Source: an uncultured Gammaproteobacteria bacterium (GTDB taxonomy: Bacteria; Pseudomonadota; Gammaproteobacteria; UBA6429; Thiohalophilaceae). From it: a stretch of DNA of 64,000 nucleotides. Under the pieces are notes generated by a model that worked only from the letters and a program-made list of their open reading frames with translations, was not told the DNA's origin and made no database searches. Position 1 is the stretch's first letter; each line of letters opens with the position of its first letter. A program made the translations under genes and the position numbers. Positions 6,711 to 52,086 of this stretch are shown piece after piece. Location of the stretch: assembly GCA_913064945.1 (NCBI GenBank), contig CAJYAN010000011.1, positions 62,001 through 126,000 on the forward strand. Reading direction: 5' to 3'.

Positions 6711-7070
6711 GGGGGCGACCAGGCTTCGACGTGGGTTACAAAACCTGAGGTGCATGCCGAGATGCAGAATCTCGTAAATCAGCTGCAAAAAAATATAGTT
6801 GCCAACGACGACAACTACGCACTAGCTGCTTAAACACCAGCTTTAGTGCCTTCGGCCTGATATGTGCTTGTGCGTTCAGATCACCGGAGTCATCCCACAC
6901 AAGATCGCGCTGAAATACGTCCGGGATGGATGCGCTAAAACCTAACGGAATCGCTGCTAGTGTTCCCTGCCTGTTGGGCAGCTAACAGTTAAACTTAAGA
7001 ACAGGATAAGCATGTAGAGCCAACGGCAGAGGATTTGCGGACGCGGGTTCGATTCCCGCCGCCTCCACCA
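6711..7070 (+). ncRNA. ssrA: Transfer-messenger RNA (tmRNA)
   Basis: A 360-nt one-piece tmRNA. The 5' end GGGGGCG pairs with CGCCTCC at the 3' end to make the tRNA-like acceptor stem, with encoded CCA at 7068-7070 and a T-arm GGGTTCGATTCCC. The D-like segment CCAGGCTTCGACG is standard. The tag frame runs 6801-6833 and reads ANDDNYALAA then TAA, with GCC as resume codon after ATAGTT. One residue (Asp for Glu) differs from the E. coli tag. It rescues stalled ribosomes with SmpB and marks the product for ClpXP. Confidence 0.97.
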
Positions 7071-7105: not shown

Positions 7106-7165
7106 ATTTGTGTTTGCGGTGTGGATGAGAGCCCGCGTTCTGCGGGTTGCCGTAGCGAAGCGTAG

Positions 7166-7367
7166 GTACACATAATGAACCCGAAGGGTTCTATGTGTAA
7201 GATTTCCGCCATACACTTAATGAAGCTCCAACGGAGATTCTAAGTGTGCCCGAATCATTGTAAATGGTTGAGGTGCACATAATGAACCCGTAGGGTTCTA
7301 TGTGTAAGATTCCCGCCACGCACTTAATAAAGCTCCAACAAAGATTCTAAGTGTGCCCGAACTACTG
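7166..7367. repeat. Two-copy 107-bp-period tandem repeat with paired hairpins
   Basis: Copy 1 (7166-7260) and copy 2 (7273-7367) are nearly identical over 95 bp and 107 bp apart. Each contains two inverted repeats: CACATA..GAACCC / GGGTTC.TATGTG, and CACTTA ... TAAGTG around an AGCTCC core. A third remnant (TAGGGTTCTATG) is at 7377-7388. No gene fits the 363 bp between tmRNA and the next gene. The hairpins could be transcript-stability elements or the trace of a small repetitive element. Confidence 0.8.
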
Positions 7368-7433
7368 AAGATGCCTAGGGTTCTATGACCGATTCCTGAC
7401 ATCTCAACTAACAATAAAAAAGGCAATCCAAAC

Positions 7434-49045: not shown

Positions 49046-50479
49046 TTATTTCAATAAGGTTAGAACGTTCTGCGGAGCCACATTGGCCTGGGCAAGCATG
49101 GCAACACCAGCTTGCTGCAGGATTTGTGCCCGCGTCAGATTGGCTGTCTCTTGCGAGAAGTCAGCGTCACGGACACGTGAACGTGCTGCACTGAGGTTTT
49201 CGGAGTTGGTGGTCAGATTCGAGATGGTCGAACCGAATCGACTCTGAACCGCACCAAACTTCGCCCGTTGGTTATTCACCGTGGCCAGCGCCGCATCAAC
49301 CGTTGCCAGAGCGACGTTGGCACCCTTCACTGAACTAATATCGATGTTCTGTACCGAGTTCAGGTTGGAGGCCTCCTGCGCATTTGTCAGTGTTGAGTTG
49401 GCCGTACCCGCCACACCAAAAGACTTGATGGAGTCAAAGGTGACCTGACCGGTGATAACAGCGGTATCGGCATTCGCATCGGCACTCAGAGTCGCCGTAC
49501 CGCCGACAACTACATTACCGGCATTCGCATTCGCCGTATCCATCAGGGTAATGTTATTACCCGTGCTGTTATTCAGGATCAGGCTCTTGCCGTCACCACT
49601 GACACGGGCAGTAACACCGGTTTTTGACGCGATGTCGTTAAATGCGGTAACCGCACCAGCCAGACCATCGTTACCTTCGGTACCGCTAAGGGTAAAGGAG
49701 ATATTGGTGGCTTGATCATTGTCCGACTTAACAGACAGTGCATAGGCCCCTGCCGCACTAAACTGAATGCCCGTTTCCGTCTCGGCAAAAGAGGTGACGC
49801 CAGTTTCACTACTCTTGGAGTTCACCAGGTTGGCGATATCTTTGGCACTGGCATTTGGGTCCACCTGCAGCTCACGGCTACCGAGATAACCGCTGACTTT
49901 CAGATTTTCACCCTGTGCTGTACGCGCCGCGCTAGCGGCAGACGTCGCTGCCCCGGACACACGGTAGTCGCCATACTGCGAAGTACGGAAGTTGCTGGTC
50001 GTGGTCTGAATCGTCTGGTTGGCATTGGCACCCACCTGGAAGATGGCGGTACCAAAGGTACCGTCCAGCAGCTTCTGACCATTGAACTCAGTGTTAGTTG
50101 AGATACGATCCAGCTCCGAGACCAGCTGACCTACTTCTGACTGCAACGCCTGGCGGTCAGAGGCACTGTTTGTGGCATTGGCGGACTGTACCGACAGTTC
50201 ACGTACACGCTGTAGAATGTTGCCCGCTTCCGCCAGCGCACCTTCAGCTGTCTGTGACAAAGAGATACCATCGTTGGCGTTACGGACGGCCTGATTCAAA
50301 CCACGAATCTGTGATGTGAATCGTTCAGAAATCGCGAGACCCGCGGCATCGTCCTTCGCGCTGTTAATACGCATACCGGACGATAAACGTTGCAATGAAG
50401 TCTGTAACGCTTCTTGCGAAGAGTTCAGATTACGCTGCGAGTTCAGCGACATAATGTTGGTATTGATTACTTGAGGCAT
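49046..50479 (-). CDS. fliC: Flagellin
   Basis: A 477-residue filament subunit. The N-terminal D0/D1 reads [19 protein letters not shown] and [20 protein letters not shown]; the C-terminal D1/D0 has [20 protein letters not shown] and ends [14 protein letters not shown]. The centre (~180-370) is variable, Ala/Thr/Asn-rich. TAGGAGTG precedes the ATG. The sigma28 promoter lies ~110 bp upstream. It is the only flagellin gene in the window. Confidence 0.97.
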
Positions 50480-50612: not shown

Positions 50613-50738
50613 GACACCGGCATGAAAAAGATTGCCGCCTTGGCTAAACCGGCATAATTTATAATGCATTGATTTTATTATATTTTTTTATTGTCTGGGA
50701 AATTGGACCGGAAAATAGGCCCGAGGGCTGGCCTGTAT

Positions 50739-50857
50739 GGTCCTAGGTCGGAGGTCTGAGGTCTGAGGTCTGAGGTCTGAGGTGCCAGGTGCCAGGTGCC
50801 AGGTGCCAGGTGCCAGGTGCCAGGACCTAGGACCTAGGACCTAGGACCTAGGACCTC
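50739..50857. repeat. Heptameric tandem repeat array, 17 units
   Basis: Seventeen consecutive 7-mers beginning GG, without gaps: GGTCCTA, GGTCGGA, 4 x GGTCTGA, 6 x GGTGCCA, 4 x GGACCTA, GGACCTC. It ends 11 bp before the flgL stop codon. The blocks show expansion of variant units in place, as in short tandemly repeated repetitive (STRR) DNA of some bacteria. CCTAGG-containing ends can pair with each other. Confidence 0.97.
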
Positions 50858-50868
50858 AATCCTATCTT

Positions 50869-52086
50869 TTAAAGATAATTGAAAAGCGAGATTCCCTGTA
50901 CCCGGGTAAATGCCTTTTGAGAGGCCTGGAGACCGGTGAGTTTGAGATTCAGGCGGCTGACCGCCTCCCCATAGTCCAGGTCCTGAACATTGGAGAGAAT
51001 TTCTTTGATCTGAACTTTATAGGCCGAGTTAATCTTTTCCTGGCTATCCATGGCATTCAACCTGGCACCCACGTTGGAGCGGATCTCCAGTATCCTGCCC
51101 AACCCCTGGTCCAGATTAGTAATCACCCGGTTCATCTCATTGTGCAGGCTGGCAAGCTCTGCCGGTGTACCTCGCCCCTTTCGCAGTGCCTGGGTAAAGT
51201 TATCCAGGGTCGTAAAGATATCCTGACTGTAACTGGGACGAACGACAAAAAAATCACCGGCTTCCGGATCACCTTTGACAAAGGTGTGAATCCCCTTGAA
51301 ATCAATGGCATCACCTTCAACATAGACTCTGGGCTTAACCACCTGCTCACCTTTGTCATTGATGACGCTATAGGTCATCGGTTGATTCGGGTCGAGGGAT
51401 TGCTTGCGATCAAAGACTATCGCGTATGTCTGCTTATCATAATTACCGGAGATGGTCCCTGGATCGATCACACCAGAACCCTTATTCCCCTTGTAGTCCA
51501 GCGTGACAAAACTACCATTGCCCTCGCGGATAGAACGAAAGACATCCGTACCCGAGTCATTGCTGGGGATGCGACGCTTAGGACCTATCTGGATAAAACG
51601 TTGCGTGTCATCTCCGTGATATTCAAACTTGCCATGTTCATTACGAACAAACGGCTTAAATCGACTTTTAGAACCCGCGAATAAAAACTCTCCTGAACTA
51701 TCCGTCGTGTTGGCAAGGCCGAGCAATTCCTTACCGAGCTGATCGATTTCTTCTGCAATAAAAGAACGGGTTTCATTTGTTTGCGAACCATTGTTTCCCT
51801 GAATCGCCAGTTCACGGGCACGTTGCAGGACATCAACGGCATTCGCCAGGACACCTTCTTCAACAGACAGATGAGAGCGTGCGCTATTAATGTTTGACTG
51901 TAATTGATCGGTGATATGCATGGTGTCATTCAAGTTGACAACTTTGGAAGCGCCAACAGGGTCATCCGAGGGCTTGAATATTTTTTTACCGGTGGCCACC
52001 TGTTGCTGCACGGCACTCAGTTTTGCCTGTTGTTCCAGCATCGAATTGATCGCCATGAGCTGAGTTTGATTAGAGGAGACGCGCAT
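50869..52086 (-). CDS. flgL: Flagellar hook-filament junction protein FlgL
   Basis: A 405-residue flagellin-like junction protein (HAP3). N-terminal MRVSSNQTQLMAINSMLEQQ and KIFKPSDDPVGASKVVNL are typical; the C-terminus ends LTGLQASQKAFTRVQGISLFNYL-like. The centre is a variable exposed domain. It follows flgK by 9 bp. Confidence 0.95.
   Translation of the reverse strand: MRVSSNQTQLMAINSMLEQQAKLSAVQQQVATGKKIFKPSDDPVGASKVVNLNDTMHITDQLQSNINSARSHLSVEEGVLANAVDVLQRARELAIQGNNGSQTNETRSFIAEEIDQLGKELLGLANTTDSSGEFLFAGSKSRFKPFVRNEHGKFEYHGDDTQRFIQIGPKRRIPSNDSGTDVFRSIREGNGSFVTLDYKGNKGSGVIDPGTISGNYDKQTYAIVFDRKQSLDPNQPMTYSVINDKGEQVVKPRVYVEGDAIDFKGIHTFVKGDPEAGDFFVVRPSYSQDIFTTLDNFTQALRKGRGTPAELASLHNEMNRVITNLDQGLGRILEIRSNVGARLNAMDSQEKINSAYKVQIKEILSNVQDLDYGEAVSRLNLKLTGLQASQKAFTRVQGISLFNYL

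Follow-up and report, generated by a model that had tools for sequence, protein, structure and literature searches.

To our knowledge, heptamer repeats in the intergenic regions of bacteria have been on record for decades, and no explanation of them has gained acceptance. The gap between the flagellar genes flgL and fliC of an uncultured gammaproteobacterium holds such a repeat, which raised the question whether a heptamer array of this kind is a local accident of replication or one copy of an element, and what such an element could be for. The locus was analyzed within the window (the whole 64,000-nt stretch of DNA under study), within the genome of the window (G000), and among related genomes.

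The heptamer array in the flgL-fliC gap

The features of the locus are collected in Table 1. The sequence-only reading had described 17 consecutive heptamers, all starting with GG and arranged in homogeneous blocks, with end blocks (GGTCCTA and GGACCTA) inverted relative to each other; the units, the block counts and the inversion were all confirmed in the assembled sequence. A strong period-7 signal was detected at the array by TRF and autocorrelation, with no equal elsewhere in the window, and the array reached a lattice-scan score of 95.5, the highest score among ten Markov-shuffled versions of the window being 21.2. The genome-wide consensus GGNNCBA was matched exactly by 11 of the 17 units, the exceptions being GGTCGGA, GGTCTGA and GGACCTC.

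Table 1. Features of the flgL-fliC gap and its flanking genes, in window positions.
Feature	Position	Strand	Description
17-unit heptamer array	50739..50857	+	119 nt: GGTCCTA, GGTCGGA, 4x GGTCTGA, 6x GGTGCCA, 4x GGACCTA, GGACCTC
Plus arm, weak continuation in register	50718..50738	+	GGCCCGA GGGCTGG CCTGTAT; AAAATA directly 5'
Homogeneous block 4x GGTCTGA	50753..50780	+	Position 5 = T, off consensus
Homogeneous block 6x GGTGCCA	50781..50822	+	
Homogeneous block 4x GGACCTA	50823..50850	+	
Minus arm (fused convergent pair)	50828..50862	-	GGATTGA, 4x GGTCCTA; begins 6 nt (AAGATA) past the flgL stop
flgL	50869..52086	-	Flagellin_N + Flagellin_C (Pfam)
fliC	49046..50479	-	Flagellin_N + Flagellin_C (Pfam)

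Since both genes lie on the minus strand, the flgL-fliC transcript has the complementary sequence of the units in Table 1, and since GGACCTA is read as GGTCCTA on the minus strand, this block is part of both lattices. At the junction with flgL the minus strand reads TAA AAGATA GGATTGA GGTCCTA, and the AAAATA before position 50718 is a common type of array 5' edge in this genome; both edges of the array (50718 and 50862) obey the edge rule of the genome. The window array is best read as a convergent pair whose two facing arms adjoin, leaving no interior, and which was probably expanded by slippage; its GGTCTGA and GGTGCCA blocks multiplied locally, in place. GGTGCCA runs were found at three further sites in the genome (C3:213713, C4:272693 and C22:355). 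GGTCTGA runs of at least three units occurred at the window locus only.

The predicted capacity of the flgL-fliC transcript to form a hairpin proved real, with folding z values of -4.2 for the transcript strand and -6.7 for its complement, and UAUUUU follows the arm of the array in the transcript. A terminator scan of the flgL-fliC locus revealed no standard intrinsic terminator, that is, no short GC stem with a loop of 3-8 nt and a T-run, and in other convergent pairs the arms are 10-193 nt apart. No array was found downstream of flgL in any of 26 relatives with usable downstream sequence (only about 250 nt in two of them), which made a flagellar role of the array unlikely. Regulation of the flagellar genes by the array was rejected on this ground, and the array probably has no specific role in flagellin expression. 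Of the named genomes compared, a Chromatiales MAG (the genome of L200) gave the best flgL match, at 47% identity.

The absence of the array from the same gap in 26 relatives, together with the homogeneous blocks, would fit a plain microsatellite, in which a chance heptamer seed in the gap grew by slippage and block switching without being an element or having a function. The sequence-only reading had likewise proposed slippage with switching of the unit, and had regarded an array occurring once and absent in relatives as a local accident. Its location between flgL and fliC was indeed unique, but the class of element recurred in the genome and in the family.

Distribution of heptad arrays in the genome and its relatives

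The genome of the window was covered by genome pattern searches and by selected stretches. About 24 loci with at least four GGNNNNA units were found, nearly all of which fitted GGNNCBA, and three-unit GGNNCBA gave 94 matches compared with 2 for the reversed pattern. In the stretches, two-unit sites occurred at 54 per 100 kb of intergenic and 3 per 100 kb of coding sequence, a density inflated because most stretches were chosen for holding arrays; permuted, six-base and eight-base control patterns, counted in the same stretches, reached 0-7 per 100 kb. Some loci were homogeneous, including 14x GGTACTA at C19:8001, 9x GGGTCGA at C6:54933 and GGTGCCA/GGCGCCA at C3:213713. Many others changed the unit at every step, such as GGGCCTA GGTCCGA GGGACGA GGATCTA GGAACAA 3' of a tRNA gene. 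A lattice that is spread over the genome with differing successive units argues against a plain microsatellite.

Among 58 related genomes, four units of GKNNCKA were matched in 16, all belonging to the same family, with 1 to 248 matches each, while reversed-pattern controls gave zero in nearly all. In a class-wide draw, four GGNNCBA units were present in 12 of 232 genomes, and heterogeneous arrays were found there in two further families (G197 of f35 and G145 of f110). A pattern scan of named GTDB contigs returned arrays of this type, mostly intergenic, in many phyla among the matches listed; no distribution was drawn from it, because the scan favours homogeneous runs and was made with this very pattern. 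The heptad lattice is thus patchy within the family of the window and rare outside it. These results made it very probable that the window array belongs to a family of elements that are dispersed and lie mainly between genes.

A search of plasmid records gave no match, and a plasmid origin was rejected. Of known RNA families, RF01703 alone appeared, below threshold (15.4 bits against 150), and was not accepted. As a separate observation, several heptamer arrays lie within 2.4 kb in Shewanella inventionis (L180:4815-7171); four of them end in GGAACTC, and heterogeneous GGTTCTA/GATTCTA units are present.

Unit composition, anatomy and orientation of the arrays

The anatomy of the arrays was determined in stretches of G018 and G001, two species of another genus of the same family, and of the window genome, with heuristic gene calls supplying the gene positions for the array-edge statistics. 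The lattice consensus was G[G/T]NNC[G/T/C]A, with the composition G, G/T, N, N, C, G/T/C, A along the unit in the three genomes. A typical element has a 5' edge ending in C/T-A, followed by about four heptads G[G/T]NNC[G/T]A and then GGAAA. It can equally be read as CKAG recurring at 7-bp intervals, with the three intervening bases nearly free, so that four of seven positions are nearly fixed. Arrays of four units were the commonest in each genome, making up 90 of 136 in G001, 58 of 106 in G018 and 20 of 47 in the window genome.

The similarity between neighbouring units depended on the length of the array. In arrays of at least 8 units, 89, 75 and 78% of neighbours in the three genomes had identical NNN, which agreed with the slippage proposed by the sequence-only reading, as far as growth within blocks is concerned, and with a plain microsatellite. 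In arrays of 3-6 units, the values were 10, 20 and 11%, compared with 7, 12 and 10% for random units. Neighbours in short arrays were about as different as units of different arrays, which is unexpected for a tandem repeat, and these arrays are therefore not slippage-like. Units of a short array are thus set on a common lattice but are nearly independent of each other, and the mark of slippage is restricted to long arrays, whose homogeneous blocks would have arisen by replication slippage. The blocks in the window are accordingly the expansion of a genome-wide element and not a free-standing microsatellite.

Of 240 arrays, 180 had their 5' side closer to a gene than their 3' side (p = 4e-15; 22 of 34 in the window genome alone, not significant), and within 25 nt of a gene the 5' side was found in 107 arrays and the 3' side in 22. 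Gene ends exceeded gene starts near arrays (83 vs 37). The arrays thus start next to a gene edge and point into intergenic space. Neighbouring arrays within 250 nt were convergent in 69 cases and divergent in 17 (p = 1e-8), although many arrays were without a detected partner. Array density between divergent genes was 0.09, 0.79 and 0.44 per kb in the three genomes, compared with 0.77-3.2 elsewhere, and these promoter regions had the lowest density in all three. A perfect hairpin directly abutted the 5' side in 17-21% of the arrays of the sister genus, compared with 2-3% of random positions. In the window genome, 46-70% of arrays had at least 4 A in 8 nt at the 5' edge, against a background of 16%, so that a T-tract comes after the facing arm; the A-rich edge was weak in the sister genus.

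The sharp four-unit mode, the orientation and edge rules, the nearly absent similarity of neighbours in short arrays and the persistence of orthologous arrays between species all argue against a plain microsatellite. Other G018/G001 orthologs differed by exactly one unit, and whole-unit gaps between orthologs, such as that at L278, are what slippage would leave. On this evidence the microsatellite explanation is largely contradicted for the element family, and we regard it as unlikely overall.

In eight arrays that could be aligned without gaps between their G018 and G001 orthologs, substitutions fell on 18 of 108 sites at positions 2-4 and on 3 of 144 sites at positions 5, 6, 7 and 1, with 47 of 478 in the flanks, in a comparison of only eight arrays from stretches mostly fetched for holding arrays. 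The apparent constraint at positions 5, 6, 7 and 1 is suggestive and not settled, because the unselected ortholog set consisted of two arrays with five differences and gave no visible contrast between positions. Position 6 (CGAG versus CTAG/CCAG) was the only position whose type was shared within arrays and between facing arrays (Fisher p = 2e-6). No co-variation of positions 2-4 was found between facing arms, contrary to what a hairpin as the selected product would give. Base pairing between arms was therefore rejected as the selected property, the subtype at position 6 alone being shared. Single four-unit arrays folded weakly and no better than NNN-shuffled ones, and self-pairing of units within a strand, through tandem G.A in CGAG, gave no excess of stability over shuffles and was also rejected.

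Comparison with known intergenic repeats

The most detailed study of heptamers that we found (Rehm et al. 2015, PMC4692102) ties the G-rich repeats GGGAATC (heterogeneous GGGANTN) of Xanthomonas and GGGGA[T/C]T of Nostoc to G-quadruplexes, for which their four-unit preference is taken as support. Those repeats resemble the present arrays in the 7-nt unit with some heterogeneous units, the dispersed and mainly intergenic location, a 5' side near an ORF of either orientation with few copies between divergent ORFs, the convergent pairs and the preference for four units. If the present arrays were elements of the same kind, four G-tracts would fold and thereby influence transcription or the stability of the genome, and the shared layout and four-unit preference are in favour of this. 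The tracts themselves are too few: four GGG tracts were present in 0-5% of four-unit arrays and even four GG in 11-47%, position 2 was T in 15-31% of units, and the window array has GG only. G-quadruplexes cannot explain the four-unit rule in this lineage on such counts; the explanation was rejected and is, in our estimate, extremely improbable. The same layout and four-unit rule without G-triplets separate the layout from the G-quadruplex idea, and the layout points instead to the recognition of a spaced motif. The element was kept apart from the Xanthomonas and Nostoc repeats despite the like layout, because the consensus differs (GGGANTN and GGGGAYT there, GKNNCKA here); GGG tracts are as a rule missing here. 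Independence of neighbouring units, positional constraint and turnover of interiors, as reported for the present arrays, are not described for Xanthomonas or Nostoc in the part of PMC4692102 available to us.

MacGregor (2015, PMC4679880) described TAACTGA direct repeats in marine Beggiatoaceae, cyanobacteria and Bacteroidetes, which are likewise intergenic heptamers of gammaproteobacteria and others. They consist of one fixed and different unit, as the sequence-only reading had correctly stated, and most of them precede a start codon by a few nt (PMC4679880), unlike the predominance of gene ends here. REP/BIME sequences, which are GTAG-/CGTC-tagged palindromes, are similar in being 20-40 bp long, dispersed and present as dimers of opposite orientation; they are mostly found where the flanking ORFs are unidirectional or convergent, downstream of genes and sometimes inside them (PMC3733652). 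Each REP is a tagged stem-loop, whereas a single four-heptad arm is not, and no regular association of the heptad arrays with RAYT genes was apparent. The STRR heptamers of cyanobacteria, named in the sequence-only reading, are also heptamer tandem repeats.

Interior turnover and a possible boundary role

Seven convergent pairs of G018 and G001 had homologous outer flanks on both sides. The arms were present in all seven, while the interiors were alike in 2, reversed in 1 and unrelated in 4. In the reversed case (L275:1828-2072 in G018, L348:8167-8400 in G001) the interiors scored 131 in reverse and at most 23 for shuffles, and the arms and outer flanks kept their orientation; since this interior is made of dispersed repeats, independent insertions are an alternative to inversion. 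Insertion was also seen inside pheT, where four GGGACGA units are in frame in G018 (L294:2067-2094) and a longer in-frame composite of heptads, the GCCCTTCGGGC hairpin and the CACCCCTCCC repeat occupies the same site in G001 (L365:11482-11576), with no insert in three aligned relatives. The earlier statement that the array is not a coding repeat is thus true of the window locus but not of this sibling element, which is read in frame in two relatives. Rickettsia palindromic elements also insert in frame into protein genes; they differ in being palindromic and in lacking a heptad lattice.

As independent observations in the sister genus, further dispersed repeats, whose inverted arms are periodic (ACCACGAAGACACGAAG ... 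CTTCGTGTCTTCGTGGT), were found inside or beside heptad pairs at L258, L261, L270 and L352. At L316 (G001, segment positions 197-384), an 80-nt unit composed of the GCCCTTCGGGC hairpin, four heptads and an AT-rich tail is tandemly repeated at least three times.

The insertions in pheT, the convergent pairs with the same subtype at both ends, and the fate of the interiors in the 7 orthologous pairs (4 replaced, 1 reversed) would be consistent with arrays being the termini of a short element that moves or recombines, MITE- or cassette-like, where one recombinase acts on the inverted four-heptad ends and exchanges or inverts the intervening DNA. Inverted arms are indeed a feature of MITE ends, but the interiors of heptad pairs are not common to different copies and differ even between orthologous ones; they are in part other dispersed repeats able to insert on their own. 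Neither a target duplication nor a clean empty site was resolved, and no candidate recombinase was found. Y1-transposase genes were usually not near arrays: 4 of 16 such loci clearly had an array nearby and a fifth had one at the very edge (L323, L326 and L332 among the former, L333 at the edge), and mobility linked to RAYT was set aside on this basis. We consider the mobile-element explanation improbable. Beside these counts, four arrays about 170 nt apart were noted in the window genome next to a gene for a Y1-type transposase that is interrupted by an internal stop codon (C19:17394-17946; L108, L332).

Returning to the dispersed lattice element, the four-heptad lattice may be kept because something recognises CKAG at 7-bp spacing, most likely a putative sequence-specific protein. 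Copies could be inserted at new sites, where they would mark and bound transcription units, and the arms might form a large, imperfect hairpin that works at the ends of transcripts. Recent mobility would predict that copies resemble each other at the free positions, and no such resemblance was seen. In the window, the blocks would have grown by replication slippage on two fused facing arms. This combined reading, in which a family member with slippage-grown blocks carries a recognised CKAG lattice and has a role at the boundaries of transcription units, is the one that we mildly favour. A recognised boundary or hairpin element is our best guess for the function, and the functional part taken by itself, i.e., the boundary or recognition role, is rather doubtful. 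A wider generalization, to a class of intergenic boundary elements on a 7-bp lattice with a putative dedicated protein or recombinase, would have interiors exchanged or inverted while the arms stay, and Xanthomonas, Nostoc and the present lineage would use different heptad codes; we regard it as speculative and unlikely to hold.

Elsewhere in the window, a tmRNA with the tag ANDDNYALAA was located at 6711-7070, and a tandem pair of a 107-nt unit lies just downstream of it at 7164-7373.
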